A DNA stretch of 54,242 nt from Lachnospiraceae bacterium (GTDB lineage: Bacteria > Bacillota > Clostridia > Lachnospirales > Lachnospiraceae). The notes below the pieces were generated by a model. The model searched no databases. It had not been told where the DNA came from and was given only the letters and a program-made list of their open reading frames with translations. This document shows positions 2,772 to 45,059 of the stretch, piece by piece (the stretch's first letter is position 1; each line of letters opens with the position of its first letter). The DNA lies in contig JAGCUO010000033.1 of NCBI GenBank assembly GCA_017962825.1, forward strand, positions 1 through 54,242, read 5' to 3'. Position numbers and translations under genes: made by a program.

Positions 2772-2780
2772 CTGAAAAGT

Positions 2781-3410
2781 ATGAAGAAAAAAGAACTTGC
2801 AGCCGAGGTTATAAAAAGGCTTAAAAAGGAATATCCGGATTCCGTATGTACTCTCGATGTGGAAGATGCATGGCAGCTTCTTGTGAGTGTCAGACTGGCT
2901 GCTCAGTGTACGGATAAAAGAGTCAACGAAACGGTGCCTGCTCTTTTTGCCAAATACCCGTCACCCGAAAAACTCTCGAAGGCAAAGCTTTCAGATATAG
3001 AAAATATCGTCCGCCCCTGCGGTCTTTTCAAAACCAAAGCACGGGATATCAAGGAATGCATGACACAGCTTGTCGAGAGATTTGACGGTATTGTTCCCGA
3101 TAACATGAAGGATCTCTTATCCCTTCCCGGTGTCGGAAGAAAGAGCGCGAATCTGATCCTGGGTGACATATTCGGTCAGGAGTCCTATGTGTGCGACACA
3201 CATTGCATAAGGTTATCCGGAAGGATCGGTATGTCGGACGGAAGCAAGGATCCGGTCAAGGTGGAAATGCAGCTTCGCAAGATCGTACCTCCCGAAGAAT
3301 CCGGTGGTCTTTGTCACAGGCTCGTGGACCACGGAAGAGCCGTCTGCAAAGCACAGTCACCTCAGTGCGAGGTATGTTGTCTTAATGATATCTGTCGTAA
3401 GAAAATGTGA
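2781..3410 (+). CDS. nth: Endonuclease III (DNA glycosylase/AP lyase)
   Basis: 209 residues with the helix-hairpin-helix and Gly/Pro-Asp architecture of Nth. It removes oxidised pyrimidines and cleaves the abasic site in base excision repair. The hairpin LPGVGRKSANLIL contains the catalytic lysine (K121), and VCDTHCIRLSGRIG contains the catalytic aspartate (D139). The C-terminus shows the C-X6-C-X2-C-X5-C pattern for a [4Fe-4S] cluster. Length and motifs match the full-size family, so the enzyme should be active. It lies tightly between rlmH and the phosphorylase gene. Confidence 0.96.
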   Translation: MKKKELAAEVIKRLKKEYPDSVCTLDVEDAWQLLVSVRLAAQCTDKRVNETVPALFAKYPSPEKLSKAKLSDIENIVRPCGLFKTKARDIKECMTQLVERFDGIVPDNMKDLLSLPGVGRKSANLILGDIFGQESYVCDTHCIRLSGRIGMSDGSKDPVKVEMQLRKIVPPEESGGLCHRLVDHGRAVCKAQSPQCEVCCLNDICRKKM

Positions 3411-3436
3411 TCTTTTTACGAAAGGAGCTTATCTAT

Positions 3437-4741: not shown

Positions 4742-4761
4742 ACAAAAGGAAGCTTAACTGA

Positions 4762-5745
4762 ATGGAAGAATTTTCGCTTAAAGCAGAACTGTCAAGCGAT
4801 GAGATGAGAAACATATTCGGAATGAGGGATGCCTTTATCAAGAAGGTTGAATCCTCCATGAATGTCCGTGTTGTTTCAAGAAACGGCTTTCTGTATGTCT
4901 ATGGAAGTGAGGAAAACGCCAATAAGGCGATGTCGGTTATCATGGATCTGAAAGACTATTCGGAAAAAGGAAATGTTATCGAAGAGCAGAGTGTAAACTA
5001 TGCGATCGATATGATGGAAGATTCCCACGAGGGTGCCCTGGGTGAAGCTTCCGCGGATGTTATATGCCATACGGCTCAGGGTAAGCCCGTAAAACCCAAG
5101 ACTCTCGGTCAGAAATCATATGTGAAGAGCATATCCGATAAGATGATCACCTTCGGTATCGGACCTGCCGGAACCGGTAAGACTTATCTGGCAATGGCAA
5201 TGGCAATAACCGCTTTTAAGAATGAAGAGGTGGGCAGGATAATACTTACCCGTCCCGCCATAGAAGCAGGTGAAAAACTGGGATTCCTTCCCGGTGATCT
5301 TCAGAGCAAGGTTGACCCGTACCTTCGTCCTTTGTACGATGCTCTTTTTCAGATCATGGGTCCCGAGAAGTTTGCACTCAATATGGAAAAAGGACTTATC
5401 GAAGTAGCACCCCTTGCTTATATGAGAGGCCGAACACTTGATAATGCATTTATCATTCTGGACGAGGCGCAGAATACCACTCCTGCCCAGATGAAGATGT
5501 TTCTTACCAGGATCGGCTTCGGTTCCAAAGTGGTCGTAACCGGAGATGCCACTCAAAAAGACCTTGCACCCGGAACTGTTTCGGGACTCGATGTGGCTCT
5601 GAAGGTTCTCGGTTCCATGGATGAGATCGGTTTTTGCATGCTTACCAGTAAGGACGTTGTAAGACATCCGCTGGTTCAGAAGATAGTCAAGAAGTACGAA
5701 GATTACGAAAACAGACACAGACCTGGTGAGAAAAAACACAGATAA
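4762..5745 (+). CDS. phoH: PhoH-family ATPase (YbeZ-like)
   Basis: 327 residues. An N-terminal KH-like RNA-binding segment is followed by a P-loop ATPase. Walker A is GPAGTGKT (residues 134-141) and Walker B is FIILDEAQN (D234, E235). PhoH/YbeZ proteins are thought to act with the endoribonuclease YbeY in rRNA maturation and ribosome quality control. Here ybeY lies two genes downstream, the standard Firmicutes arrangement phoH-pgpH-ybeY. All ATPase residues are intact, in contrast to the degenerate middle gene of this trio. Confidence 0.94.
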   Translation: MEEFSLKAELSSDEMRNIFGMRDAFIKKVESSMNVRVVSRNGFLYVYGSEENANKAMSVIMDLKDYSEKGNVIEEQSVNYAIDMMEDSHEGALGEASADVICHTAQGKPVKPKTLGQKSYVKSISDKMITFGIGPAGTGKTYLAMAMAITAFKNEEVGRIILTRPAIEAGEKLGFLPGDLQSKVDPYLRPLYDALFQIMGPEKFALNMEKGLIEVAPLAYMRGRTLDNAFIILDEAQNTTPAQMKMFLTRIGFGSKVVVTGDATQKDLAPGTVSGLDVALKVLGSMDEIGFCMLTSKDVVRHPLVQKIVKKYEDYENRHRPGEKKHR

Positions 5746-5760
5746 AGGGGCTGACGCGGA

Positions 5761-6960
5761 TTGGAAACCTCAAAGGTAAAATCAGGAAGTAAGATACCCG
5801 GGATCATCTTCACACTTATTTATGCAATGCTCCTTACGGGCGTCGGATATGTGGGGGGGAAGGATACCGCAGAACTTATCCAGTACGGTGTATTCAGCAT
5901 TCTCCTGGGAGGGCTTGTTTCCCTTTGCATCCGTAAGTTTTTCCCCGTATCAGTTACTGACCCCGGTATCTCGGAAAAGAGTGAATCGAGATTCTGGATA
6001 ATCGTATATATCTGTATGCTTTTATCCGTACTGTTTTCCTATTTTCCCAATACCATGTGGGTATTTGTTCCTGTATTTGTCATCCTTTCACTGTTTTCAT
6101 CGCCTCTTGTGGGAATAATAATCGCATCTGTATTATTAGCCGGTACGGCAATGATATCCGGATGCGGAGCACTTGTTTTTTTCCTGTATTTTGTAAGTGG
6201 TGTATTCTCGGTCATGGTTTATCTGCCTTTGACCGAAGAGATAAAATTTGCCATGCCGGCATTTTTGTCCTCCTTATGTCTCCTTGTTTGTGAGATGTGC
6301 GGGATCATACTTACCATAAATTCCGCTTTTGATATCCAGCTTCTGATATTGCCCTGCGCCAACTGTCTTATCGGAATGATGGTCATATATTCGGCATTCA
6401 GGGGATATTCGTCGCTGATCATGTTCAAATATTCCGATCTGTACCAGACTCTTTGCGATACGGAGAATGAGAAGCTTCTTGAACTCAAGAGTGAATCTCC
6501 CAAAGAATATATGCTCAGTATCCATACCGCATATTTCTGTGACAGAGTTTCATCATCCATCGGACTTGATGCGGATATCGTAAAATGCGCGGGTTATTAC
6601 CACGAACTTACTCCCGGCAGTGAAGATGACAGGGAAGACTTTTATAATGAGATGGGTTTTACCGAAGGACTTAAGAATATCCTTGATGAGTATAAAGAAT
6701 ACATCTCTAATCCCGGTATCTCTCTTGTCAGAAAAGAAGCGGCAGTACTTGTATGCTCCAGAACCGTGGTCAAGACCGTCATGGCTCTTTTTGAAAAAGA
6801 TAAAGATGCGGACATCGATACCGGAAAACTTGTGGATGCCGTATTTGACAGATTTGTTTCCAGAGGGACTTTCAGTGATTGCGAGATAACTTTTTCCGAT
6901 ATCTCCAAAATGAAGAAGATCTTCAAAGAAGAAAAGCTTTACTACGATTTTTTGAAATAA
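5761..6960 (+). CDS. Degenerate PgpH-like (7TM-HD family) membrane protein, probably inactive
   Basis: 399 residues starting at TTG with AAAGGGG upstream. It occupies the pgpH (yqfF) slot between phoH and ybeY. PgpH hydrolyses cyclic-di-AMP and is usually around 700 residues, with an extracellular domain, seven helices and an HD domain. Here only several membrane helices (about residues 12-220) and an HD-like domain remain. Recognisable family landmarks are GLDADIVKCAGYYHE and the C-terminal RKEAAVLVCSRTVV...FSDCEITFSDISKMKKIF. The HD pair is H281-E282, the earlier conserved double histidine is M251-L252, and the RQHHGT segment is absent. Hydrolysis is therefore unlikely. The frame is intact, so it may be a retained structural or signal-binding protein. 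Confidence 0.8.
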   Translation: METSKVKSGSKIPGIIFTLIYAMLLTGVGYVGGKDTAELIQYGVFSILLGGLVSLCIRKFFPVSVTDPGISEKSESRFWIIVYICMLLSVLFSYFPNTMWVFVPVFVILSLFSSPLVGIIIASVLLAGTAMISGCGALVFFLYFVSGVFSVMVYLPLTEEIKFAMPAFLSSLCLLVCEMCGIILTINSAFDIQLLILPCANCLIGMMVIYSAFRGYSSLIMFKYSDLYQTLCDTENEKLLELKSESPKEYMLSIHTAYFCDRVSSSIGLDADIVKCAGYYHELTPGSEDDREDFYNEMGFTEGLKNILDEYKEYISNPGISLVRKEAAVLVCSRTVVKTVMALFEKDKDADIDTGKLVDAVFDRFVSRGTFSDCEITFSDISKMKKIFKEEKLYYDFLK

Positions 6961-6964
6961 ACCT

Positions 6965-7471
6965 ATGAATATTTACATTGAAAAAGAAACCGATACGGAT
7001 TTTGCTTTTGATGAAAATGTGCTCATCAAAACTGTTGTCGAGCATGCCTTTTCATCCGAAGGAGCTCCCGTTGCAAATGCATGTGTAAATGTACTCATTA
7101 CGGATAGTGAGGGAATAAGGGAGCTTAACAGGGATTACAGGGGAATAGATTCACCCACCGATGTATTATCCTTTCCGAATCTTGATTTTGACAAGCCTTC
7201 CGATTTCGATATTCCCGCAGACAGGAAGGCAGATTATACCGATCCCGAAACGGGAGAGCTTATCCTGGGGGATATTATCCTGAATGTGGACAGGATCTTT
7301 TCACAGGCTGAAGAATACGGTCACAGCATTAAGCGTGAAACCGCTTTTCTTGTAGCACACAGCTGTCTTCATCTGTGCGGCTACGATCATATGACAAAGC
7401 CTGAGGAAGAAGAAATGATATCCAAACAGGAAGAGATCCTTAATTCACTTGGTATTACGAGAGGTGACTGA
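6965..7471 (+). CDS. ybeY: Endoribonuclease YbeY
   Basis: 168 residues, a zinc-dependent endoribonuclease for 16S rRNA 3'-end maturation and ribosome quality control. The zinc motif H-X3-H-X5-H is complete in AHSCLHLCGYDH (H132, H136, H142). The conserved segments LNRDYRGIDSPTDVLSF and LGDIILNVDR are also present. The gene starts four bases after the PgpH-like gene, and its stop overlaps the next start by one base, so the genes are translationally coupled. Confidence 0.96.
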   Translation: MNIYIEKETDTDFAFDENVLIKTVVEHAFSSEGAPVANACVNVLITDSEGIRELNRDYRGIDSPTDVLSFPNLDFDKPSDFDIPADRKADYTDPETGELILGDIILNVDRIFSQAEEYGHSIKRETAFLVAHSCLHLCGYDHMTKPEEEEMISKQEEILNSLGITRGD

Positions 7472-9045
7472 TGAAGAATTACGTTTATAAGAAAAAGACA
7501 GGATATATCTGCCTTCTTATTTCAATTATCTCATTATTCCTGTACAGGATGTTCCTTACCGAAGCCGGAATGGGATATGGATTTGTTACTTACCTTGTCT
7601 GCATGATCGTATGGATGATCTTCGGACAGGGATTTTCGGATGTCACCGCAAGAATGGCCAGGGTAAGACTTTCAAAAGGCCAGAAGAGAAGTGCACTTGA
7701 TGTTTTGGCCGTATCCTTTGCATGTCATTTTATATCCGGACTTATCGGTACCGCACTTTGCGGAGCTCTTAATTTCTGGTTTATGTCCGATGTGATCCAT
7801 CTTCCTAAGGGAAGATTTTTGGGAATATATCTCTGCGGCTGGTTCTTTTTCAGGATGATGAATGAGTATCTTACGGGTTACGCATCGGTATCATCAGGAG
7901 ACAGGGCTATCTGCATCTCAATGGTTTCAAGAGAACTTTTCAGGATCGTATTCGGATTCCTGTTAATGAAGATGATGTATGACAAGGGTATCGTTAATTC
8001 CGCACTTCTGATGGATGACGATATCAAATATATCTATGCATGTGCCGGCCTCTTTGCAGGATTCTGCATAGCGGAGATTTTTGTATTTGTATTCCTGTTT
8101 ATAGTCCGTCTCGGACTCAGGATAAAGGCAAGTGATGAAAGAGAAGGCTTCGGCGGAAGAGATAATCTCGGAGTCATAATTCTTAATCTCCTTAAGAGAA
8201 GAGTCGGAGATCTTGTGGCCGGTCTTTCGGTGTGCCTGGTCCTTCTGATCTGGGCTGCTCAGTCAGGTGACGTACACGGCATCGGACTTTCCGTTTATAT
8301 GCTTCTTTCCCCCTTTGCATTTTCACTGGTGTTTGCTCTTTATGCAGGTTCACATGCCGGAGCAAACTGGATGCAGAGCGTGCGTAAGAACGAGAAGGGA
8401 AATGCCAGGGCGTATTTTGATTTCGGAATGCATATTGTATGCATCGTTTCCGTTTTTATCACTGCATTTTTTGCATCTGTTTCCAAGCCGGTTGCCAAGC
8501 TTCTTTCCACCGGAACCGAATTAAGTATTGTAGTTGAATTCATACTTATAATCGCGGCTTCCATATTACTTTCAATGGCAATGTTCTGCGATTCCCTCTG
8601 CTCAGGAAGAGACGATCGTATTCCCCGAATAATCGCGCATGCGGCTTCGGGTTTTGCCGGTATTCTTGCCGTTAAATTATCTACCGGTAACGGACATAAT
8701 ATGTACAGGGGACTTATGATATCCGTTCTGGTATTTTCCATAATCGAGCTCATAATATGGTGCGTAATATCCTATGTCCGTATGAGCATGGTATTTGATC
8801 CCATCAGAAATATCCTTATCCCCATTGTGTCGGGTGCAGTCTGTGCGATCTTCCTCGTAATCATTACAAATGCGGCTGCTGCTCATCTGGGTAATCTTTT
8901 TACCGTAGTCATATGCATTCCGATAGGTCTTATCATATATCACTCGGTTCTGCTTCTCCTCAGGAACTATTCCGATGCAGAACTTAAGCTGATGCCTTTC
9001 GGTAGTATTCTTTACAGTCTCGGTCAGATATTGAAGGTGATCTGA
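7471..9045 (+). CDS. Polytopic membrane protein, possibly MOP-superfamily flippase-like
   Basis: 524 residues with about 12 to 14 predicted membrane helices over the whole length and short polar loops. The general layout, with a basic N-terminus (MKNYVYKKKTGY) and paired helices with small charged loops, resembles polysaccharide flippases of the MOP superfamily (SpoVB/MurJ/Wzx). No diagnostic motif was recognised, so the family call is tentative. The start codon overlaps the ybeY stop and the next gene follows after two bases, so it belongs to the same transcript. No signal peptide or soluble domain is seen. Confidence 0.6.
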   Translation: MKNYVYKKKTGYICLLISIISLFLYRMFLTEAGMGYGFVTYLVCMIVWMIFGQGFSDVTARMARVRLSKGQKRSALDVLAVSFACHFISGLIGTALCGALNFWFMSDVIHLPKGRFLGIYLCGWFFFRMMNEYLTGYASVSSGDRAICISMVSRELFRIVFGFLLMKMMYDKGIVNSALLMDDDIKYIYACAGLFAGFCIAEIFVFVFLFIVRLGLRIKASDEREGFGGRDNLGVIILNLLKRRVGDLVAGLSVCLVLLIWAAQSGDVHGIGLSVYMLLSPFAFSLVFALYAGSHAGANWMQSVRKNEKGNARAYFDFGMHIVCIVSVFITAFFASVSKPVAKLLSTGTELSIVVEFILIIAASILLSMAMFCDSLCSGRDDRIPRIIAHAASGFAGILAVKLSTGNGHNMYRGLMISVLVFSIIELIIWCVISYVRMSMVFDPIRNILIPIVSGAVCAIFLVIITNAAAAHLGNLFTVVICIPIGLIIYHSVLLLLRNYSDAELKLMPFGSILYSLGQILKVI

Positions 9046-9047
9046 TA

Positions 9048-10664
9048 ATGCTCCGTATCGATCAGTTAAAAATCAAAGTAAGTGATAAACAGCCCGATTT
9101 ACGTCGGGCTGTTATTTCGAAACTAAAAATATCCGAATCTGAATTAAAAGATTTCGGTATTATCAGAAGATCTCTTGACGCCAGAAAAAAGCCCGAGCTG
9201 TATTATGTGTTCAGCATATGGGCAGTGTGTTCTAACGAAGATAAGATCCTGAAAAGATTTTATAAGGACTCTAATATTTCTCAATATGTCCAGGTCGAAT
9301 ACAAACTTCCCCAATCCGGAAGTGAACCTTTGTCTGACAGACCTGTTGTCGTAGGAATGGGACCTGCGGGTCTTTTCTGTGCCTATGAACTTGCCCTTGC
9401 GGGATATAACCCTCTTGTTATCGAGCGCGGAAGAAGTGTTGAAGAAAGAGCACAGGATGTAGAAAAGTTCTGGGAGACCGGAGTTTTGGATACTGCCAGC
9501 AATGTTCAGTTCGGAGAGGGCGGAGCAGGTACATTCTCCGACGGAAAGCTTTCGACTTCCATCAAAGACAAAGAGGGCAGGATACATGAGGTTCTTAAGA
9601 TCTTTACGGAGCACGGAGCTCCCGAAGAAATACTTTATGATCATATGCCTCATCTCGGAACAGATGTACTTCCGAAAATAGTTAAGAACATCCGTGAGAG
9701 GATAATAGAGCTGGGTGGTGAAGTCAGATTTGAAACCTGTCTTACAGGTATTGAATGTGAAGCGGGTAAGATCACCGGGGTAAAATTATCCGGACCTAAC
9801 GGTGAGGATACGATAAAAACTAGTATCCTTGCTCTTGCAATCGGTCATTCCGCCCGTGATACCTACAAAGCTTTATATGACTGCGGACTTAAGATGGAGC
9901 AAAAGCCTTTTGCCGCAGGATTCAGAGTTCAGCATCCCCAGAGGATAATCAACGAGAATCAGTACGGCGATGATAAGTATTCCGAAATACTCGGTGCTTC
10001 TCCTTATAAACTCACCGCCAATTTCGGAGACAGGGGAGTGTTTTCTTTTTGCATGTGTCCCGGAGGGTATGTAGTGAATTCCTCATCGGAAGAAGGGGAG
10101 ACAGTTGTTAACGGAATGAGCTACAGCGGGCGAGATTCCGAGAATGCTAATTCGGCTATAGTTGTCAGCATTCCCGTTACAGATTATCCCTCGGAACATC
10201 CTCTTGCCGGTATCGAGTTTCAAAGAGTCTTAGAACGCAGGGCTTATGAAGCCGGAAAGGGTAAGATTCCCGTACAGAGATACGGGGACTTTGCCGGCAA
10301 AGTTACAGGTGACTCTGCTGTATGCGATAATCCTTCTTTTGTAAATCCCGTATTTAAGGGTGAATACGAGTGGACAGACCTGTCAGGTATTTTTGATGAA
10401 TCAATAAACATGCTTTTTATAGATGCGGTGACCAGATTTGGAAGGACCATTAAAGACTTTGATGATCCCGGTATGATAATGGCAGGTGTGGAATCCAGGA
10501 CCAGTTCTCCGGTAAGGATTCCCCGAAACGATTCACTGGAAAGCTCAATAGGAGGTATCATACCTCTCGGAGAAGGAGCAGGATATGCCGGGGGAATAAC
10601 CTCTGCTGCCATTGACGGAATAAGAGGAGCTGAAGTGATCATCAAAAAATTTGCATCAATTTAA
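9048..10664 (+). CDS. NAD(P)/FAD-dependent oxidoreductase of the COG2509 type
   Basis: 538 residues. An N-terminal domain of about 100 residues, rich in basic and aliphatic residues and containing RRSLDARKKPELYYVF, precedes a Rossmann FAD-binding motif (VVVGMGPAGLFCAYELALAGY, about residue 100). It continues with FGEGGAGTFSDGKLST and the C-terminal GIIPLGEGAGYAGGITSAAIDG that closes the FAD site. This layout is typical of uncharacterised FAD-dependent dehydrogenases common in Firmicutes; the substrate is unknown. Codons 14-22 form a strong hairpin in the DNA (see the separate entry). It is the last full-length gene of the opening plus-strand run. Confidence 0.88.
   Translation: MLRIDQLKIKVSDKQPDLRRAVISKLKISESELKDFGIIRRSLDARKKPELYYVFSIWAVCSNEDKILKRFYKDSNISQYVQVEYKLPQSGSEPLSDRPVVVGMGPAGLFCAYELALAGYNPLVIERGRSVEERAQDVEKFWETGVLDTASNVQFGEGGAGTFSDGKLSTSIKDKEGRIHEVLKIFTEHGAPEEILYDHMPHLGTDVLPKIVKNIRERIIELGGEVRFETCLTGIECEAGKITGVKLSGPNGEDTIKTSILALAIGHSARDTYKALYDCGLKMEQKPFAAGFRVQHPQRIINENQYGDDKYSEILGASPYKLTANFGDRGVFSFCMCPGGYVVNSSSEEGETVVNGMSYSGRDSENANSAIVVSIPVTDYPSEHPLAGIEFQRVLERRAYEAGKGKIPVQRYGDFAGKVTGDSAVCDNPSFVNPVFKGEYEWTDLSGIFDESINMLFIDAVTRFGRTIKDFDDPGMIMAGVESRTSSPVRIPRNDSLESSIGGIIPLGEGAGYAGGITSAAIDGIRGAEVIIKKFASI
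9088..9113 (+). other. Perfect 10-bp hairpin within the start of the FAD-protein gene
   Basis: AACAGCCCGA (9088-9097) and TCGGGCTGTT (9104-9113) are exact inverted copies with a six-base loop, followed by ATTT. The hairpin lies 41 bases into the coding region. It has the stem of an intrinsic terminator but only a short T run. Confidence 0.6.
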
Positions 10665-10683
10665 TTTTTCTTGGGAGGGGAAA

Positions 10684-10749
10684 ATGGGTTTATCAGATTT
10701 TATGGATGTGCTTGGCGGTATGAATACCGATTCATACGGTTATTGTTGA
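10684..10749 (+). CDS. Small ORF (21 residues), possibly the front part of a frameshifted small gene
   Basis: Begins 19 bases after the FAD-protein stop with a strong ribosome site (GGGAGGGG at 10673-10680). It encodes MGLSDFMDVLGGMNTDSYGYC and then stops at TGA. In the +1 frame the sequence continues without a stop as IVEEIIFAVEKLLEKPDEVK...I to a TAA at 10811-10813. The second piece looks like a normal amphipathic helix, so the two together could be one protein of about 43 residues broken by a single-base frameshift, or a programmed +1 shift. No family is recognised. A free 21-residue peptide is the alternative reading. Confidence 0.4.
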   Translation: MGLSDFMDVLGGMNTDSYGYC

Positions 10750-10822
10750 GGAGATCATTTTTGCGGTAGAAAAACTGCTGGAAAAACCCGATGAGGTAAA
10801 AAGATTTATATAAGTACTTTAT

Positions 10823-10851
10823 TTGACAGTTTCGGTACTTCGATTTATATT
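10823..10851 (+). promoter_or_regulatory. Sigma-A promoter of the proB operon
   Basis: TTGACA (10823-10828), 17-base spacer, TATATT (10846-10851). It is a near-consensus promoter about 70 bases before proB. The predicted leader is about 60 bases, too short for a T-box, and no terminator-like structure is seen in it. Confidence 0.8.
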
Positions 10852-10921
10852 AAAACGGTATGTTTAAGGGAATTTTAGGGGCTTTTAAGCAATAAAAATA
10901 TATTAACGGTTTAGTGATAAG

Positions 10922-11791
10922 ATGAGTAATTTAAGAGATAATTTTAAAAATAAAAAAAGGATCGTAGTTAAGATCGGATCATCATCCATCAATCATCCCG
11001 AAAGCGGCGGAATGGACTTTTCCAGAATAGAGCTTTTGGTAAGACAGCTTTGTGATATCCACAATTCCGGCAAGGATGTTGTACTGGTATCATCGGGAGC
11101 AATCGCTGCAGGTAAATATGCCATCGGATATGGAATGGACAGATCCATCAACCGTCATGAGCTTACTCTTCCTCAGAAACAGGCTTGCGCTGCTATCGGT
11201 CAGGGAAGACTCATGAACATTTATGAGAAGTTTTTTACAGAGTATAATTCTCTTCCTGCTCAGGTCCTTATGACCAAAGATACCGTATTAAATGATACCA
11301 ACAGGGTTAACGCTACCAATACATTCAAGGCACTTCTTGATATGGGCGTCATCCCCATAGTTAATGAAAACGATACCATCGCTACCCACGAGATCGAGAT
11401 AGGTGATAACGATACACTTTCCGCTATGGTAGCTTCAATGGTAGAAGCAGATCTCCTTATCCTTCTTTCCGATATTGAAGGACTTTATACCGATGATCCC
11501 AACAAGAATCCCGATGCCAAGTTCATTGCCGAGGTTCCCGAGATCACCGATGAATATCTGGAGATGGGAAAGGGAAGTACAGGTTCCGGAATGGGAACCG
11601 GCGGAATGAGCACCAAGCTCAATGCAGCTAGGATTGCAACCAAGTCCGGAGCTGATATGGTCATTTGTTCCAGCAAGGATCTTACCATTCTCTCAAAGAT
11701 CATTGCGGGAGAAGAGGTGGGAACCGCATTTGCTTCCGCTAAGGACGACTCCTTCGACCTTCCTTCTTTTGTAAGGGATATACTTAAATAA
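10922..11791 (+). CDS. proB: Glutamate 5-kinase
   Basis: 289 residues, amino-acid kinase fold. It phosphorylates glutamate to gamma-glutamyl phosphate, the first step of proline synthesis. Landmarks are VVKIGSSS near the N-terminus, VLVSSGAIAAG, IPIVNENDTIATHEIEIGDNDTLSAMVA and the GTGGMSTKLNAARIA loop. The C-terminal PUA domain found in about 370-residue versions is absent, which is a known short form. No clear Shine-Dalgarno sequence precedes the ATG, although a strong promoter does. proA follows two genes later. Confidence 0.95.
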   Translation: MSNLRDNFKNKKRIVVKIGSSSINHPESGGMDFSRIELLVRQLCDIHNSGKDVVLVSSGAIAAGKYAIGYGMDRSINRHELTLPQKQACAAIGQGRLMNIYEKFFTEYNSLPAQVLMTKDTVLNDTNRVNATNTFKALLDMGVIPIVNENDTIATHEIEIGDNDTLSAMVASMVEADLLILLSDIEGLYTDDPNKNPDAKFIAEVPEITDEYLEMGKGSTGSGMGTGGMSTKLNAARIATKSGADMVICSSKDLTILSKIIAGEEVGTAFASAKDDSFDLPSFVRDILK

Positions 11792-11818
11792 TCATGGCCG
11801 GAAGGCCCCAGAGGATAT

Positions 11819-12430
11819 ATGGCTGATAACAGAAAACCCGAAATTTCAAAAAAACAGATCAGAGCAGAGGTTATTGCCAAGCGTGATGCTCTCAGTGAAA
11901 CTCAGGCAAAAGCTGCCGCAGAGAGCGTATATAATCAGGTGATCTCGGATCCTCTTTTCATAAAAGCCAAGAGAGTACTGGGATTCATGCCATTCGGAAG
12001 CGAAATAGACATCAAGCCCATTCTTGAATATGCTCTTGCCAATGAAAAGGAAGTCTTTGTTCCACGCATTACCACAAACGGATTCCATAAAGAGATGGAA
12101 TTCAGAAAAGTTAAGGATGTGGATCCCGTTCATTATTCTTTCGGAAAATACAAGATCTTAGAACCATCCGAAGAATGTGAACCTTTTGAATATAACGAGG
12201 CTGAAGCTATGATGCTTCCCGCACGTGACCTTGTACTTCTCCCCGGTGTTGCTTTCGACAGATACAACAAGAGAGTTGGATACGGCGGAGGATATTATGA
12301 CAGATTTCTGGAGGACAAGCTTACGCTTCGTATCCATTCCATCGCAGTATGCCATGCGTGCCAGATAGTTGACTACGAAATCCCCGAAGACGAAGGTGAT
12401 GTAAGACCCTTTAAGGTGGTTTGTTCATAA
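11819..12430 (+). CDS. 5-formyltetrahydrofolate cyclo-ligase
   Basis: 203 residues. It converts 5-formyl-THF plus ATP to 5,10-methenyl-THF. The family signature is seen in LLPGVAFDRYNKRVGYGGGYYDRFL, with its glycine-rich phosphate loop, and RVLGFMPFGSEIDI matches the conserved N-terminal part. It sits between proB (27 bases upstream) and proA (12 bases downstream) in the same transcript. It has no direct role in proline synthesis, so the link may be simple co-expression. AGAGGA upstream of the ATG serves as the ribosome site. Confidence 0.93.
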   Translation: MADNRKPEISKKQIRAEVIAKRDALSETQAKAAAESVYNQVISDPLFIKAKRVLGFMPFGSEIDIKPILEYALANEKEVFVPRITTNGFHKEMEFRKVKDVDPVHYSFGKYKILEPSEECEPFEYNEAEAMMLPARDLVLLPGVAFDRYNKRVGYGGGYYDRFLEDKLTLRIHSIAVCHACQIVDYEIPEDEGDVRPFKVVCS

Positions 12431-12442
12431 AAGGAGATCCAT

Positions 12443-13693
12443 ATGACAGATCTTATAACATTAGGTGAAAATGCCGTAAAGGCAAAATATAAAGCCGCTC
12501 TTATTTCAACGGCTCAGAAAAACGAAGTACTTGTAAAGTGTGCAAAAGCACTTCAGGACAATGCGGAAGAAATCATTAAAGCAAATGAGATCGACCTGAA
12601 GAATGCCGTTCAAAACGGAATGTCCGAAGCTATGCAGGACAGACTTCGCCTTACCGTGCAGCGTATTGACGGTATTGCGGAAGGCCTGCATCAGGTTGCC
12701 GATCTGCCCGATCCCGTGGGTGAGATCATGGAAGAGTTTGACCGCCCCAACGGAATGCACATCACCAAGGTGCGCGTACCCATGGGTGTTATCGGAATTA
12801 TCTATGAATCCCGTCCCAATGTTACTCCCGATGCATTCTCACTTACCTTTAAAGCGGGAAGCGCATGTATCCTCAAGGGCGGAAGCGATTGCATCGAATC
12901 TAATAAAGCGATAGTTAAAGTTCTCAGATCTGTTCTTGAATCGGAAGGACTTGATCCCGATATCCTTCAGCTTATCGAGTCAACCGATAGAAGTGTAACC
13001 ACCGAATTCATGAAGATGAAGGAATATATCGATGTGCTCATTCCCAGAGGCGGTGCGGGACTTATCCGTGCGGTTGTTGAGAATTCCATGATTCCCGTCA
13101 TCGAGACCGGAACCGGAAACTGCCATGTATATATTGACAAGGATGCGGATCTTGAAATGGCCGTTAACATTCTTTTCAATGCCAAGACTCAGCGTATATC
13201 CGTATGTAATGCATGTGAAAGTCTTGTTGTGCATTCTGCGGTTAAAGACAAGGTTCTTCCTCTTATATATGAAAAGCTTTCCGAGAAGAATGTGGAACTC
13301 AGATGTGATGAACCTTCTTATGAAGTGTTGGGTGATAAAGCCGTTCATGCTACCGAGGAAGATTTCGGCAGGGAATATCTTGATTACATCCTTTCCGTTA
13401 AGACGGTAGATTCGGTAGAGGAAGCCATCGATCATATCAATAAATACAGCACCCACCATTCCGAATGTATCGTAACGGAAAATAAAGAAGCGGCTGAAAT
13501 GTTCCAGGAAAGAGTTGATGCCGCATGCGTATATGTAAATGTATCAACCAGATTCACCGACGGATTCGAGTTCGGATTTGGTGCGGAGATCGGTATCTCC
13601 ACCCAGAAGCTTCAGGCAAGAGGTCCTATGGGACTTAAGGAGATCACATCATATAAATACAGGATCACCGGAAACGGTCAGGTCAGAGGATAG
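12443..13693 (+). CDS. proA: Gamma-glutamyl phosphate reductase
   Basis: 416 residues, the usual size. This aldehyde-dehydrogenase-fold enzyme reduces gamma-glutamyl phosphate with NADPH to glutamate semialdehyde, the second step of proline synthesis. Landmarks are VPMGVIGIIYESRPNVT, LKGGSDCIESN, LIPRGGAGLI, the catalytic-cysteine region RISVCNACESLVVH, and FGFGAEIGISTQKLQARGP. AAGGAG at 12431-12436 places the start. It acts directly after ProB in the same operon. Confidence 0.97.
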   Translation: MTDLITLGENAVKAKYKAALISTAQKNEVLVKCAKALQDNAEEIIKANEIDLKNAVQNGMSEAMQDRLRLTVQRIDGIAEGLHQVADLPDPVGEIMEEFDRPNGMHITKVRVPMGVIGIIYESRPNVTPDAFSLTFKAGSACILKGGSDCIESNKAIVKVLRSVLESEGLDPDILQLIESTDRSVTTEFMKMKEYIDVLIPRGGAGLIRAVVENSMIPVIETGTGNCHVYIDKDADLEMAVNILFNAKTQRISVCNACESLVVHSAVKDKVLPLIYEKLSEKNVELRCDEPSYEVLGDKAVHATEEDFGREYLDYILSVKTVDSVEEAIDHINKYSTHHSECIVTENKEAAEMFQERVDAACVYVNVSTRFTDGFEFGFGAEIGISTQKLQARGPMGLKEITSYKYRITGNGQVRG

Positions 13694-36908: not shown

Positions 36909-36940
36909 ATAGTATATTCGTATTGCCGAGGGGAAAAACA

Positions 36941-38272
36941 GTGAATAAACTTACGCGTTCCAGCAGATACATGATATCCATAAGCGTGTTTCTGATAGTT
37001 ACCAATGCGCTTTTGGGATTTTTGCTGACCAAACAATCCGACAAAGCCATCAGGGATCTCATTCAACACCGTATGCTGGATATTTCCAATACCGCAGCTT
37101 CGATGATAGACGGTGATGTCCTCGAATCTGCAGGTCTTGATAATCTGGATTCACCCGAATGCAGGAAGATCTACGAAACTCTCACCTTTTTTCAGGATAA
37201 TATCGAACTCGAATACATATATTGTATAAAAGAAGTTGCGGATAACAGCTTTGTATTTTCCATCGACCCCACGGTGGAAGATCCCGGTGAATTCGGTGAG
37301 CCCATTGTATGTACCGAAGCTCTTATGCAGGCAAGTGACGGTTTTGCATCCGTTGACGAAATGCCATATGAAGACAAATGGGGCAGATTCTACAGTTCAT
37401 ATTCTCCCGTATTTGATTCTGAGGGTAATGTTGCGGGGATTGTTGCCGTTGATTTCAGCGCCGAATGGTATGATGAACAAATACGCAATCTCGTGTTCAT
37501 TACCATCATTGTTATATTGATAGCATTTGCCCTCAGTGTAGGCATCATCATATTTATCGCAACCAAATACAGGAAAAGATTTAAATCTATATCCAAAGAT
37601 ATGCGAAAGCTTTCTGATGAGATCGAAACCCTTGTAAAAGAAGTCTCCATAGATTCTTATTGGTACGAAGAGTCCGTTAGCGAGAAGAAGGAAAAGAGTT
37701 CCAATGATGAGATTGAGGTGATATCACTGAAGATCAGATCACTTCAGGACAGACTTGAAGATCAGATCGGATATGTCAGATCCCTTGCTTATATCGATGG
37801 CCTGACAGGTCTCGAAAACAGGACCTCATATATGGAGCAGGTCAAAGTTATTGAAGATAATATAGCGTCAGGAAAAGCTTCTTTTACTGTTGTTGTCTGT
37901 GATATAAATCAGCTCAAGCTGATCAACGATGATTACGGACATGAGGAAGGCGATAAAGTGATCACTCTGGTCTCAAGAACCATTCAGGAATTGTTCTCCA
38001 ATGAGAAGTTGTACAGGATCGGCGGAGATGAATTTGTTATCATTGGAAAAGACCCCGATTATGCCGGAAGGATCTCGGACCTGAAAGCAAAACTGAAATC
38101 CTCAAGAGCTGAGATAGATGATCTTCCCGCTTCCGTATCTGCAGGATTTTCGGTATATGACAAAAACACCGATAATGAATACAGTGATGTATTTACCAGG
38201 GCTGATAAGCTTATGTACGAGGATAAAAAGAAATTCTATCTGACACACGAAGACAGAAGAAAAGCAAGATAA
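36941..38272 (+). CDS. Membrane diguanylate cyclase with Cache-like sensor
   Basis: 443 residues from GTG 36941, set by GAGGGG at 36928-36933. Helix one (about residues 10-31), an extracellular sensor (about 32-175) with Cache-like features (WGRFYSSYSPVFDSEGNVAGIVAVDF), helix two (about 184-208) and a HAMP-like linker lead to a GGDEF domain. The active-site GGDEF is intact at residues 361-365, with DINQLKLINDDYGHEEGD upstream, so cyclic-di-GMP synthesis is expected. The inhibitory RxxD site five residues before GGDEF is not present (FSNE at that place). The neighbours are metabolic, so the signal is unknown. Confidence 0.92.
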   Translation: MNKLTRSSRYMISISVFLIVTNALLGFLLTKQSDKAIRDLIQHRMLDISNTAASMIDGDVLESAGLDNLDSPECRKIYETLTFFQDNIELEYIYCIKEVADNSFVFSIDPTVEDPGEFGEPIVCTEALMQASDGFASVDEMPYEDKWGRFYSSYSPVFDSEGNVAGIVAVDFSAEWYDEQIRNLVFITIIVILIAFALSVGIIIFIATKYRKRFKSISKDMRKLSDEIETLVKEVSIDSYWYEESVSEKKEKSSNDEIEVISLKIRSLQDRLEDQIGYVRSLAYIDGLTGLENRTSYMEQVKVIEDNIASGKASFTVVVCDINQLKLINDDYGHEEGDKVITLVSRTIQELFSNEKLYRIGGDEFVIIGKDPDYAGRISDLKAKLKSSRAEIDDLPASVSAGFSVYDKNTDNEYSDVFTRADKLMYEDKKKFYLTHEDRRKAR

Positions 38273-38309: not shown

Positions 38310-40463
38310 TTACTTGTGAGAATTGTCGTTTCCTCTGGGACCGTTATATTCCGTATTTATTCTTTTCTCGAATTCGTTGTCCAGCTTTCTGATGTGGTAT
38401 TTATTTACATTTAATATCACGACGATGATAAGCATTACAACAGAAAGAAGGAGAAGAGTGATCAGTATTCCGGAGTTTGCGGATCCTTCTTTTTCGGCCT
38501 GAGGTGTCTGAGTGGCAGCGGGAGAAGCGGGATAGCTTCCGTCCGAAGGAGCAGCGTTTCCTGCGTCTGCCGCACCGGTTTCGGAACCTGCCGGAGCACC
38601 GCCTTCCGTTCCGGTACCTGACTCGGAGCCTGAACCTGCAGCTGCTCCGGTTCCTGTTGAAGATTCATCTGTTCCCGAACCTTCGTTTAAAACGGGTGTA
38701 GGAGCATTCCCCGAATGGTCTGAAAGTGATATTCCATTTGCACCAAGTGCAACTTCGTGATCAAGTCCGATGAATTTTCCTGCATCATTTTTCCAGAGAA
38801 CAGTTTCTACTAGAGCATATTTTTCATCGTCCCATGTCTTAAAGTCATCCTTAACCAGTCCGCCCGTATCACCGGAGTTTGCGTTGTAGCACCAGAAGGT
38901 GTGGTTGAGGTTTTCTTTTCCGATAAGGTCTCTTAAGTATTCCATCCACTTAAGATTGTCACCTGACATGAAGCCTCCCCATTCACCGATAAGGATGGGA
39001 GCTATATCTTCCTCTGCGATATAAAGCCAGTAATCATGCCATACATCGTTGTAGAGGGAATCATAAGTGAAATCTCCGCTGAACCAGGGCTGCTGATATA
39101 CGAGAGGGCCGTAGTCATGGGGTGAATAAACGATCTGTCTGTTTCTTGCTTCATCGCCGAAATCAATGGGATAATCCCTGACGGCCATAAGGTTTCCGCC
39201 CCACCATGTGTTGTAGTAATCGGCTTCGCTTGTAGAAGTGAAATTGTTGGCAGTAGGCTTGGTGGGATAGATCTGAATTCCTTCGACTACAATGAGCATG
39301 TGGGGATTGATGTCGAGTATCGCATTACCTGCACGCTCTGCAACTCTCTTCCAGTTGTTTGCGTCGTTTGAATCGTTCCATATCGCGTGAGGAGTCTCAT
39401 TGGGCTTGCCGTGAGGCTCGTTCTTAAGGTCGATGGCAACGATGGTGTCGAAATTCTTATATCTGTCAGCGAGCCATTTAAGTGCTTCGATGTACTGATC
39501 TTCCGAGATCTTGTCGGTATACCATACGGGATGATTGTGACCGGATGCATCCGTATTTGCGGAATGGATGTCGATCATTACCTTGATGCCGTTCTGCTCG
39601 CAAAGAGTAAGAACGTAGTCAAAGATCTCAAGTGAATTCAAAGAATTCAGATTGGAGTTATATGCGTGATTGTAATTGGCGGTAGGATAATTTCCCTTTT
39701 TCCACTCAAGAAGAAGCTCAGCGGACATGGGGACTCTCATGAGGTTGAATCCATGGTCTGCGATGGAAACGATGGAAGATTCCAGTTCCGCATTCCATAA
39801 TCCGTCGAAGAGATTGGTTCCGGTGTTGTATCCGAACCAGTTGAGACCGGTGAGCCATACCTGGTTTCCGTTCATATCCACGATCTTAGAACCGTCGGTG
39901 GAAAGCCAGTCATCGCCGGTGGTGCCGAAAGTGGAAACGGCGGGAGATGAGAACTCGGGTCTTGCTTCGGAATTATTATTCTGGTTGTTCTGGTTGTTCT
40001 GGTTATTCTGATTGTTATTGTTATTATTGTTGTTTGCGGGAGCGGTATATGTACCGGAGCCCGTTACGCTTACGACCTTCGCGGAAGTGATGCCTGATCC
40101 GTCAACCTGTATACCCACGTTTGAGTTAAAACCCCAGGAATTTGCTCCGTCTGCTTTGACGGTAGCGGTTACCTGATGACCGTTAGCGGTATAGGTATCA
40201 AATCCCCATCCCGAAGGGGATTTTACATCTGTGTTAAATTCCACAACCACAGTAATGGTCAGATATCCTGAACAGCCCTTCAGGTCAAAAGAAATCTGGC
40301 CCCCTGAACCCCACAGATTTGTTTTTACATTGTTTGCTGTCGGTGTTTCAGCAGCCATAGTCGTCCCGGATAATGCGTATTGAGATAATGAGATGATCAA
40401 AATGAATGATACTAAAATCGCAGATACGACTTTTGTCACCGGTCTTCCAAAGAACTTTTTCAT
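38310..40463 (-). CDS. Membrane-anchored GH5 endoglucanase with N-terminal binding domain
   Basis: 717 residues. A signal peptide (to about A38) is followed by a beta-sandwich module (about 45-140, CBM2-like or DUF5620-like, with exposed tryptophans in SGWGF and NSWGF), an Asn/Gln linker (144-164), a GH5 catalytic domain (about 180-580), a Gly/Ser/Ala/Glu linker and a membrane helix (665-686) with a basic tail. Catalytic acid E349 lies in IDLKNEPHG and nucleophile E494 in LIGEWGG. It should cut cellulose or mixed-linkage beta-glucan at the cell surface. GAGGGG precedes the ATG. The C-terminal anchor replaces the usual dockerin or sortase signal. Confidence 0.93.
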   Translation of the reverse strand: MKKFFGRPVTKVVSAILVSFILIISLSQYALSGTTMAAETPTANNVKTNLWGSGGQISFDLKGCSGYLTITVVVEFNTDVKSPSGWGFDTYTANGHQVTATVKADGANSWGFNSNVGIQVDGSGITSAKVVSVTGSGTYTAPANNNNNNNNQNNQNNQNNQNNNSEARPEFSSPAVSTFGTTGDDWLSTDGSKIVDMNGNQVWLTGLNWFGYNTGTNLFDGLWNAELESSIVSIADHGFNLMRVPMSAELLLEWKKGNYPTANYNHAYNSNLNSLNSLEIFDYVLTLCEQNGIKVMIDIHSANTDASGHNHPVWYTDKISEDQYIEALKWLADRYKNFDTIVAIDLKNEPHGKPNETPHAIWNDSNDANNWKRVAERAGNAILDINPHMLIVVEGIQIYPTKPTANNFTSTSEADYYNTWWGGNLMAVRDYPIDFGDEARNRQIVYSPHDYGPLVYQQPWFSGDFTYDSLYNDVWHDYWLYIAEEDIAPILIGEWGGFMSGDNLKWMEYLRDLIGKENLNHTFWCYNANSGDTGGLVKDDFKTWDDEKYALVETVLWKNDAGKFIGLDHEVALGANGISLSDHSGNAPTPVLNEGSGTDESSTGTGAAAGSGSESGTGTEGGAPAGSETGAADAGNAAPSDGSYPASPAATQTPQAEKEGSANSGILITLLLLSVVMLIIVVILNVNKYHIRKLDNEFEKRINTEYNGPRGNDNSHK
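39972..40034 (-). repeat. Asn/Gln-coding short tandem repeat
   Basis: Encodes an eight-residue Asn run followed by repeated Gln-Asn-Asn triplets (residues 144-164 of the GH5 protein). The DNA is a nine-base repeat on a trinucleotide run, prone to length change by slippage. Confidence 0.85.
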
Positions 40464-42563: not shown

Positions 42564-42592
42564 TTGTAAATAAAGGATTTTCGCGATATAAT
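42564..42592 (+). promoter_or_regulatory. Promoter of the GH13-like gene
   Basis: TTGTAA (42564-42569), 17-base spacer, TATAAT (42587-42592), about 26 bases before the ATG. Confidence 0.7.
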
Positions 42593-42618
42593 TTATTGGA
42601 TTATGGAGTACCTTGCAC

Positions 42619-44466
42619 ATGAATAAGAACGGGACCAATTATATATTCCCACTCATCACACAGGAAACCGATGACGGCCTTAGATTCTGCCTGGAAAATA
42701 CCGCTTCCGACTGCGGAATTGTCCTGTATGACAGAGCATCGGGCAGGGAACTTAAAAAGATAGCTTTTGAACCGGGTGACCGTATCGGTAATCTTTATTG
42801 CAAAACGGTTACGGGCATTCGGGCATCCGAGATTTCATATCTATATTATTCCGGATCAAGCAAAATTAGCGATCCCAGAGCAACCGGATTTGCTGCCGGA
42901 AGAGAATACGCATCACCTGTGAATGAACCTTTGAAAGCCGTGATCTGTGATTCTTGTTATGACTGGGGAAACGATGCTCATCCGCGATTGAAATTTGAAG
43001 ACAGTTTCTACTATCTGCTTCATGTAAGGGGATTTACCAAGTCTCCCTCATCGGGAGTTAAAGCTAAAGGAACCTATGCGGGAATAATTGAAAAGCTGGA
43101 TCATCTTGTATCCCTCGGGGTTACGACGGTTGAATTACAGCCCGCATATGAATTTATAGAAACGGAATGCAAACCCGGTATTGAGCCCGTGTACGGGTAC
43201 GGATCGTCAAAACCTCTTCAGGTCATTCCGGGCAAGCTGAATTACTGGGGTTACAAACCCGGATATTATTACGCACCGAAGGCAAATTATTCCTCTTCTT
43301 CGGATGCATCCAAGGAATTCAAAGATCTTGTAAAAGAACTTCACAAGCGCGGTATGGAGCTTTGTATGCAGTTTTATTTTGCTCCTGATTTTCCGGAATC
43401 GGAAGTTCTTGAAGTTCTGCGATACTGGGTGATCAATTACCACGTGGACGGTTTCCATCTGATGGGAATGAATATACCCATGAGACTGGTTTCTTCGGAT
43501 TCACTTCTGGCCGGAACCAAGCTTTTGAACGATCATCTTGAAAATGTGGATTTTGATTCACTCAAGGAATCGGGTTTCGGAAGATTTGTCGGATCATATA
43601 CGGATGATTTCAGATATCCTTTGAGGAGACTTCTGAAAGGAGATGAAGGCCAGATATCCGATACGCTTTCTTATCTGAGGTTAAATCCCGAAAACTACGG
43701 ACGCATCAATTTCTTTTCCGACTATCAGGGATTTACCATGATGGACATGGTCAGTTTCGACCGTAAGCATAACGAGGAAAACGGTGAAGACGGAAGAGAC
43801 GGAAGTGACTATAACTTCAGTTGGAACTGCGGAGAGGAAGGACCTACTCGTAAAAAGAAGATCAAAGATCTCAGGCTCAGACAGATCAAAAATGCTTACA
43901 GCCTCTTGATGCTCAGTGCCGGTACTCCTTTGATATTTATGGGAGACGAATTCGGAAATTCGCAAAACGGTAACAATAATCCCTACTGTATAGATTCTCC
44001 CGTTACCTGGCTTGACTGGAAGAATCTTAAGAAGAATTCCGAACTCACCGACTATCTCAAAGAGCTTGTTAAGCTGAGAAGAAGTCATAAGATCTTCAGT
44101 CTGGGCAGAGAGCTTTATATGATAGATACCGAAAACTGCGGATATCCGGAGATGAGTTACCATTCGGATACCGCATACAGAGTATCGTGTGAGTATTATT
44201 CCAGATCCTTCGGTATCATGTATTGCGAAGATAAGGGTGAGTCCCTTTTATATGCTGCAGTCAACATGGGATGGGACAGCAAAGTACTTGCGCTTCCCAG
44301 ACCACCTAAAGGTTTCGATTGGAAAATGAAATTTTCCACGGATCCTGAAGCAGCAAACAGCCCCTTATCACAGGAACTTGAAAAAACTATTCCCGGCAGG
44401 ACCGTAACCTTCTTTGAAACGGTCAAAACCCCCGCGGGAAGTAAAACCGGGAAGGCGAAAAAATGA
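42619..44466 (+). CDS. GH13 debranching-enzyme homologue, probably catalytically inactive
   Basis: 615 residues with the isoamylase/GlgX layout: N-terminal CBM48-like domain (about 1-105), TIM barrel (about 120-480) and C-terminal beta domain. Strong family landmarks are HVRGFTKSPSSGV, KHNEENGEDGRDG, NFSWNCGEEGPT and TPLIFMGDEFGNSQNGNNN. The catalytic sites are changed: region I reads MQFYFAPD instead of MDVVFNHT, region II reads DGFHLMG (nucleophile Asp replaced by M282, Arg by H280), the acid Glu is D305 (KLLNDHLE for KLIAEPWD) and region IV reads SDYQG (Asp replaced by Q370). Hydrolysis is unlikely. The frame is intact and the gene is coupled to DUF5662. Glycogen binding or regulation is an inference. 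Confidence 0.85.
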   Translation: MNKNGTNYIFPLITQETDDGLRFCLENTASDCGIVLYDRASGRELKKIAFEPGDRIGNLYCKTVTGIRASEISYLYYSGSSKISDPRATGFAAGREYASPVNEPLKAVICDSCYDWGNDAHPRLKFEDSFYYLLHVRGFTKSPSSGVKAKGTYAGIIEKLDHLVSLGVTTVELQPAYEFIETECKPGIEPVYGYGSSKPLQVIPGKLNYWGYKPGYYYAPKANYSSSSDASKEFKDLVKELHKRGMELCMQFYFAPDFPESEVLEVLRYWVINYHVDGFHLMGMNIPMRLVSSDSLLAGTKLLNDHLENVDFDSLKESGFGRFVGSYTDDFRYPLRRLLKGDEGQISDTLSYLRLNPENYGRINFFSDYQGFTMMDMVSFDRKHNEENGEDGRDGSDYNFSWNCGEEGPTRKKKIKDLRLRQIKNAYSLLMLSAGTPLIFMGDEFGNSQNGNNNPYCIDSPVTWLDWKNLKKNSELTDYLKELVKLRRSHKIFSLGRELYMIDTENCGYPEMSYHSDTAYRVSCEYYSRSFGIMYCEDKGESLLYAAVNMGWDSKVLALPRPPKGFDWKMKFSTDPEAANSPLSQELEKTIPGRTVTFFETVKTPAGSKTGKAKK

Positions 44467-45059
44467 GTACTCCTTATTTAGTCAGATTTGTTCAGCATTT
44501 TGTTACGATCACCAAGCACCGCATACTTGTTTGCAAAGGCTGCTTTAAGATCGGATTATATTACCAGGGACTGACTCACGATCTGTCCAAATATTCTCCC
44601 GATGAATTTCTGGTGGGAGTCAAATATTTTCAGGGAACAAGAAGCCCCAATAATGCGGAACGTGAGGATATAGGTTATTCATCCGCCTGGCTCCATCACA
44701 AAGGCAGGAACAAGCATCATTACGAATACTGGATCGACTATAACACAAGAGGCGAGATGCCGGGTGAGGACGTACTGATCCCGGTAGAGATGCCCGACAG
44801 GTATATTGCGGAAATGGTAATGGACCGAATAGCCGCATCCAAGGTTTACAAGGGAGACGAATATAAAGATTCCGATTCTCTCGAGTATTTTCTGGGTGGT
44901 ATAGAAACGACTCCCATGCATCCGAATACCAGAAAAAAGCTGTACAGATATCTGAAGATCCTTGCGATATACGGTGAAGACAAGCTTTGCAGGCTTATCA
45001 GATATGAATTGAAACACGGACGCTATATTCCAAGATCAAAAAGGTCCGGAGCAAACTAA
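44463..45059 (+). CDS. DUF5662 family protein
   Basis: 198 residues, rich in His, Tyr and Lys. Characteristic segments are HFVTITKHRILVCKGCFKIGLYYQGLTHDLSKYSPDEF, HHKGRNKHHYEYW and MPDRYIAEMVMDRIAASK. The conserved His and Asp positions (THDLSK, HHKGRNKHH) suggest an HD-like metal site, but function is not known. The ATG overlaps the stop of the GH13-like gene, so both are made together. aroC follows after 18 bases. Confidence 0.8.
   Translation: MSTPYLVRFVQHFVTITKHRILVCKGCFKIGLYYQGLTHDLSKYSPDEFLVGVKYFQGTRSPNNAEREDIGYSSAWLHHKGRNKHHYEYWIDYNTRGEMPGEDVLIPVEMPDRYIAEMVMDRIAASKVYKGDEYKDSDSLEYFLGGIETTPMHPNTRKKLYRYLKILAIYGEDKLCRLIRYELKHGRYIPRSKRSGAN

Follow-up and report, generated by a model that had tools for sequence, protein, structure and literature searches.

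The closest described counterparts of the protein analysed here are found in the isoamylase/GlgX group of glycoside hydrolases (GH13_11). In plants, ISA2 is a non-catalytic paralogue of isoamylase that forms complexes with ISA1 (PMC12510319; PMC3787081). Cryo-EM and modelling have it bind glucan without hydrolysing it (PMC12510319). Maize ISA1 shows no detectable activity once N561, W578 or N628 is substituted; W578 is also a glucan contact of its secondary site SBS2 (PMC12510319). In bacteria, PMC9530166 describes GlgX of Streptomyces venezuelae, dimeric in the crystal and placed under allosteric control by c-di-GMP, which is contacted by Arg438 and by an N-terminal ExR(x)6R motif. A structure of this enzyme with acarbose names residues that hold the sugars: contacts to the −1 sugar come from Trp222 and Tyr224, those to the remaining sugars from Glu470, Asn534 and Tyr536 (PMC9530166).

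A debranching-enzyme homologue in Lachnospiraceae

The window, that is, the whole stretch of DNA analysed here (54,242 nucleotides, contig JAGCUO010000033.1 of a Lachnospiraceae bacterium), encodes a protein of this group.

42564..42592, + strand: sigma-70-type promoter of the pseudoenzyme gene, TTGTAA-17-TATAAT (pattern scan and upstream alignment)
42619..44466, + strand: gene for a non-catalytic GlgX/isoamylase homologue; open reading frame intact, ATG at 42619, stop codon ending at 44466, 615 amino acids

An in-frame TTG at 42613 is a possible alternative start. A first-pass annotation of the sequence had proposed a GH13 debranching-enzyme homologue with an intact frame, and the matches to Pfam, to TIGR02100 and to solved structures all agree with this assignment. 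The protein scores 37.3 bits with the Pfam Alpha-amylase model (PF00128), above the gathering cut-off of 22, and 266.4 bits with TIGR02100 (glgX_debranch), well short of the equivalog cut-off of 640.9. Judged by this score and by the failure of its catalytic residues, its sequence puts it outside GlgX as an enzyme family. The solved structures that match it best are plant and algal isoamylase 1, followed by Streptomyces GlgX and TreX, and isoamylase 1 also aligns with most of a profile built from the clade, from profile position 8 onwards. The Pfam models for CBM_48 and for the isoamylase C-terminal domain appear below threshold in some relatives; neither was reported for the window protein.

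The same annotation credited the gene with a good promoter, which is plausible: the pattern proves nothing by itself, because the scan found 2 sites against 5.7 in shuffled sequences, but the block is kept in six aligned upstream regions (the window and five relatives). There TATAAT is identical in six out of six while the flanks diverge, and only the relative L016 shows a change in the first hexamer, of one base. The neighbours of the gene resemble housekeeping genes (a UvrD-like helicase, a lactonase-type propeller), with no glycogen genes among them; further ones, named by reading of their sequences, are presumably aroC, gltX, trpS and luxS. Upstream also lies a GH5 cellulase with a C-terminal hydrophobic segment, beside a putative GGDEF protein (38310–40463 and 36923–38272), the latter being what we take it to be from its sequence. 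The order GH5-UvrD-pseudoenzyme is common to the window and to loci L009–L012.

A dismantled active site

For the assignment of residues, the window protein was aligned with 16 intact GlgX proteins, one of them encoded on contig C113 of its own genome. From 180 profile matches, 140 were distinct; removing three pullulanase-like proteins (L103, L106, L110) and a partial one at a contig end (L150) left 136, namely 120 pseudoenzyme relatives and the 16 intact GlgX. The relatives are a non-random sample, made of the best-scoring loci of the family search and of other genome searches, with several from one genus.

43366..43386, + strand: former GH13 region I, M250–P256; Asp replaced by Q251, Asn by A255, His by P256
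43456..43464, + strand: former region II; Arg replaced by H280, nucleophile Asp by M282
43531..43533, + strand: D305, at the position of the former acid/base Glu (alignment)
43726..43728, + strand: Q370, at the position of the former transition-state-stabilising Asp (alignment)

The alignment with GlgX thus confirms every catalytic loss that had been read from the bare sequence, in region I and at H280, M282, D305 and Q370, and the Asp, Glu and Asp of a working GH13 site are all replaced. Where an ISA2-type protein is recognized by the change of at least four of five catalytic residues, the nucleophile included, the window protein has all of them changed. Substitution is accompanied by deletion: the stretches that follow regions I and II are shorter than in intact GlgX by about 44 and about 14 residues respectively, and the one preceding region IV by about 8. 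These deletions recur in the relatives. The spacing between regions I and II is 26–27 residues in 120 out of 120, against 70–73 in 16 out of 16 intact GlgX; that between regions II and III is 23–25 residues, against 37–38; and the stretch before region IV, which carries Arg438 in GlgX, has 9 residues in all 120, against 15–17.

The nucleophile Asp is present in none of the 120 relatives. The acid column retains Glu in 20 of them and the region IV column retains Asp in 26, with both in one protein only (L123), while the Asp column of region I holds Glu in 68/120 and Gln in 42/120. When six active-site residues of S. venezuelae GlgX are scored (D342, E378, D450, H271, W380, H449), 34 of the 120 keep none, 54 keep one, 27 keep two and 5 keep three. 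Because the same state is found in 120 of the 120 relatives aligned, the dismantled active site is beyond chance.

An AlphaFold2 model of the window protein, built on an alignment of 7 sequences, is poor (pLDDT 47), and loop geometry consequently rests on the alignment. In this poor model helices start at 260 and 288, after strands 247–253 and 278–282, with short loops between. Such an order would be in line with lost active-site loops in a barrel that is kept, a pLDDT of 47 making this no proof. A Foldseek search with the same model (pLDDT 47) adds little: ISA1, ISA2, TreX and GlgX rank first.

Two variants of the architecture were seen. A subgroup of shorter pseudoenzymes (L140–L147, 557–606 aa) has a further deletion around the region of the former acid Glu. 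In three genomes (L032:1435–3858, L034:91–2589, L198:1691–4054) the C-terminus of the pseudoenzyme is fused to an O6-methylguanine-DNA methyltransferase domain.

An old and selected gene of the family

With the window protein as a query, 337 of the 397 genomes of the Lachnospiraceae family match at E ≤ 0.001. Taking off the 27 matches weaker than 1e-60 leaves about 310 carriers out of 397 (a hand count), and the weak group still holds at least two more, G130 and G189, the latter with a partial copy. When 75 genomes were searched again with the clade profile, all 43 of those with E ≤ 1e-60 proved to carry the pseudoenzyme. Matches that are contiguous and full-length along this profile occur in 20/22 family genomes and 0/174 others in a sample of the order, and in 3/5 family genomes and 0/393 others in a sample of the phylum. 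Family and others were separated here by a kinship column; the list being ordered by kinship, unlisted genomes free of matches were counted as others. Up to six candidates were scored per genome in the order sample, and three in the phylum sample and in the family search. Outside the family, where matches were reported at E ≤ 1e-30 (phylum sample) and 1e-60 (order sample), they are split or partial. Eleven of them were inspected, from 10 of the 25 matched other-family genomes of the order sample (L130–L139) and one of the 5 of the phylum sample (L102), and all possess every catalytic residue.

FastTree separates the 120 relatives from the 16 intact GlgX with a support of 1.0, or 0.999 when the catalytic columns are left out, and IQ-TREE gives the same split with an SH-aLRT of 100. 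From the tree and the shared deletions we infer one ancestral loss, a single origin being the simplest reading rather than a proven one because the tree is unrooted relative to other GH13 proteins. The gene is under purifying selection: its omega (dN/dS) is 0.064–0.087 against the four closest relatives (L009–L012) and 0.129 against L016, from the same genus, values that are rough because dS, at 1.2 to 1.9, is near saturation.

The proposal that this is a selected pseudoenzyme has therefore held: the gene is retained family-wide in one group, with a low dN/dS, a conserved promoter block and deletions shared by 120 out of 120, and among the relatives aligned the nucleophile is gone from every one, with no sign of scattered recent losses or of an intact catalytic set. 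That we are dealing with a real, deep, family-wide pseudoenzyme is nearly certain. Among the listed titles and opening lines of abstracts from the open-licence literature on DUF5662 (the family of a neighbouring protein, see below), on glycogen pseudoenzymes of Lachnospiraceae and on inactive or GlgX-like GH13 proteins, no paper treats this clade; it may have been mentioned elsewhere before. Likewise, neither 'pseudoenzyme' nor 'Lachnospir' occurs in the first 300,000 characters of PMC11046441, which reviews the alpha-glucan enzymes of prokaryotes.

What the protein has kept

Conservation has fallen in the catalytic segment, but five residues that hold sugars in GlgX are largely retained.

43246..43254, + strand: retained sugar platform W210/Y212 (Trp222/Tyr224 of GlgX, −1 sugar; alignment)
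43771..43824, + strand: N385–W402, part of the best-conserved stretch and including E390 (Glu470 of GlgX; alignment)
43972..43986, + strand: N452–Y456, where N454 and Y456 are Asn534 and Tyr536 of GlgX (alignment)

These correspondences are with the sugar contacts named in PMC9530166; the numbering of the GlgX chain, as deduced from the alignment, runs 3 above that of the paper, and Arg212 could not be aligned. The contacts of the same list that belong to the catalytic site have been lost from the window protein. W210, E390 and N454 are each kept in 119 of the 120 relatives and Y456 in 115, while Y212 is kept in 103, with Phe in the other 17. All five stand together in 96/120. By identical spacing, N385, W402 and N452 are likely counterparts of N561, W578 and N628 of maize ISA1, the residues whose substitution silences that enzyme; for R504, the fourth site mutated there, alignment found no position in the window protein. 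N385 and N452 are invariant in 120/120, and W402 is Trp in 114/120. Neither E390 nor W402 is a universal glucan contact, since among the 16 intact GlgX only 10 have Glu in the first column and 10 have Trp in the second.

Over residues 301–325, the catalytic segment, conservation is 0.34 in the relatives against 0.76 in intact GlgX, and over residues 376–475 it is 0.67–0.77 against 0.63–0.75. Such a pattern fits a protein that would still hold glucan chains which it no longer cuts, although a role in the fold could also explain why these residues are retained. On balance, and with modest confidence, we read the protein as a non-catalytic alpha-glucan-binding protein, akin to ISA2 in its way of working and apparently of independent origin, the binding being predicted from sequence. 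The catalytic stretches would have been removed from an ancestor of the isoamylase/GlgX type, leaving the rest of the sugar groove in place. This groove would bind the alpha-1,4-glucan chains of glycogen or maltodextrin, and the protein, probably cytosolic, would act as a glucan-binding scaffold, or as a targeting or sensing factor, with no role as a hydrolase and seemingly no need for an active isoamylase subunit.

Glycogen is likely to be present in the family, since GlgA was found in all of the 75 genomes searched, a set picked partly for weak or absent matches. The same ubiquity makes a dependence of the pseudoenzyme on glycogen synthesis impossible to read from these genomes. In 24 of the 75, GlgA is present with neither the pseudoenzyme nor GlgX (E ≤ 1e-40); the pseudoenzyme is thus dispensable.

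A partner for the pseudoenzyme?

The plant precedent suggests another role, that of a regulatory subunit which must assemble with the active GlgX or isoamylase of the cell and tunes its activity or its targeting to glucan. The genome of the window does have an intact GlgX, and the dimeric state of crystalline GlgX and the ISA1–ISA2 complexes count in favour of this idea. Co-occurrence speaks against it. Among the 75 genomes, 45 have the pseudoenzyme; at E ≤ 1e-40 the intact-GlgX pattern turns up in 15 of these and in none of the other 30 (hand count); 6 have the GlgX-type match without the pseudoenzyme (hand count) and 24 have neither. Class was set here by the pattern, a split match near profile position ~261, and not residue by residue. 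An obligate GlgX partnership as in plants is accordingly disfavoured, and we regard the subunit reading as unlikely. In one locus, L074, an intact GlgX (10644–12821) and a pseudoenzyme (6893–8728) lie on the same strand with one open reading frame of another family between them, the only such pair among the 45 stretches examined.

A second candidate partner is encoded immediately downstream.

44463..45059, + strand: DUF5662 gene (Pfam PF18907, 119.8 bits); ATGA overlap with the pseudoenzyme gene; HD-like His/Asp pattern

The first-pass annotation had noted a translational coupling of the two genes, and the ATGA overlap at 44463 is real and common to L009–L012 and L016. It had also asked whether DUF5662 always follows, which it does not. 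The DUF5662 gene follows at 150 bp or less in 56 of 119 loci and at 151–1200 bp in 8, hence within 1.2 kb in only 64; it was not found in the available stretch at the other 55, and one more locus had too little sequence. DUF5662 is present in 63 of the 75 genomes, about equally with the pseudoenzyme (39/45) and without it (24/30, hand count). Adjacency in 64/119 loci and this even co-occurrence make for a weak partnership: DUF5662 as a universal partner is rejected, and its proposed function as a standing partner in glucan sensing finds no support in that form. Mapped on the tree, adjacency requires 10 changes, against a mean of 39.7 after shuffling, with a non-adjacent parsimony root. The gene order is therefore old and inherited clade by clade, and the two proteins may be linked in some branches of the family, although nothing found ties DUF5662 to glucans.

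What DUF5662 does may be approached from its sequence and its viral relatives. In 17 sequences the invariant positions are H19, H39-D40, H78-H79, H85-H86 and D121, and the model (pLDDT 79) is mostly helical; its best fold match, at E 1.6, falls short of significance. Phosphohydrolases of the HD superfamily carry an H...HD...D metal site on an all-alpha fold, of which this His/Asp pattern on a predicted helical frame may remind us, a likeness that comes without a significant fold match. A search of PDB sequences gave nothing convincing (best E 0.23), and a Pfam scan no match to an HD domain. Among 14 viral loci, in which 128 open reading frames were called and 20 neighbours and one DUF5662 protein scanned, three (L088, L089, L096, at ~2400–5300) have DUF5662 between genes of the isochorismatase family and of nicotinate phosphoribosyltransferase, in what looks like a virus-borne NAD-salvage cluster. 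A cytidylyltransferase-like gene comes next after this cluster in L089. In another viral locus, L086, the next open reading frame carries an ART-PolyVal ADP-ribosyltransferase domain. The neighbours scanned in other viral loci include genes for ligase, RtcB, poly(A) polymerase and gyrase. The viral context of DUF5662 points toward nucleotide chemistry and away from glucans.

These genes leave room for a reading in which glucan binding is irrelevant, the barrel being only a platform for protein interactions or for DUF5662. A barrel free of catalysis can indeed act as a scaffold. The clade-wise inheritance of the DUF5662 adjacency and the overlap of the genes in the group of the window would agree with this role, as would the three genomes in which the protein is fused to a methyltransferase domain instead. 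Yet DUF5662 is near in little more than half of the loci, is non-adjacent at the root and occurs in most genomes that lack the pseudoenzyme, and the sugar-contact residues rank among the most conserved, so that we find the scaffold reading improbable too. A bolder proposal, somewhat less probable still, joins the two functions. The pseudoenzyme would be a partner-free bacterial counterpart of ISA2, a dedicated reader of glycogen chains, derived from a debranching enzyme that had its catalytic loops cut out at an early stage in the history of Lachnospiraceae. About half of the loci would couple it to DUF5662 as a putative HD-type phosphohydrolase of nucleotides or nucleotide sugars, and glucan occupancy could then gate the turnover of nucleotide sugars or dinucleotides.

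It might also be asked whether the active site has been remodelled to catalyse some other reaction, which would make the protein a new enzyme and no pseudoenzyme. Several polar residues are nearly invariant (R137, E247, E390, D394, D443, E444, H515), a few near-invariant positions hold a residue other than the one most common in intact GlgX (N208, K221, D503, G532), and the Asp column of region I has settled mostly on Glu or Gln. Against this, most of the near-invariant residues are the majority residue in intact GlgX as well, and the former catalytic positions vary widely; we deem a new enzyme very unlikely. Finally, that the gene died recently or is decaying, or that errors of assembly or frame produced its state, is hardly conceivable: residue loss alone could signal decay, and one genome among the family matches listed (G052) has an in-frame TGA, but the open frame and identical state across the family, the low omega, the conserved promoter block, the deletions shared by 120/120 and the single deep group speak against it, and we reject decay.

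Comparison with known systems

The non-catalytic alpha-glucan-binding protein that we favour would have consequences for genome annotation. If it is what it seems, most sampled genomes of a dominant family of the gut and rumen carry a gene which is counted as an alpha-amylase, as it passes the Pfam cut-off, and, the GH13 mechanism being impossible for the protein so counted, tallies of enzymes for starch and glycogen would come out too high in this family.

With the bacterial GlgX and TreX enzymes (GH13_11) the window protein shares homology along the whole chain and the conserved block at about 376–475. It differs from them by the absence of nucleophile, acid and stabiliser, by three shortened stretches, and by a score of 266 bits against the family cut-off of 641. 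GlgX of S. venezuelae is moreover a homologue with a regulatory ligand besides glucan (PMC9530166). A c-di-GMP site of that type is unlikely in the clade because the loop of Arg438 has 9 residues instead of 15–17, and a c-di-GMP receptor like the Streptomyces enzyme is disfavoured by this shortening in 120/120.

The ISA2 proteins of plants and algae (GH13_11) come closest. Like the bacterial clade, they are non-catalytic paralogues of isoamylase retained over deep time, with the nucleophile lost throughout (PMC12510319), and the two probably share an isoamylase-like N-terminus, a barrel and a C-terminal part. ISA2 has an extra N-terminal beta-sandwich, assembles with the catalytic ISA1, and retains SBS1 without SBS2, and the same source traces the plant lineage to Chlamydiae (PMC12510319). 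The clade has no room for the N-terminal domain of ISA2, since its profile aligns with isoamylase 1 from position 8. It has deleted stretches around the active site, it probably possesses the counterpart of the SBS2 Trp, and it mostly occurs without an active isoamylase. If our reading is correct, this would be a second, apparently independent, loop-deleted case of a conserved non-catalytic isoamylase, and the question asked of plants, why a dead isoamylase persists, would become testable in bacteria that have no active one.
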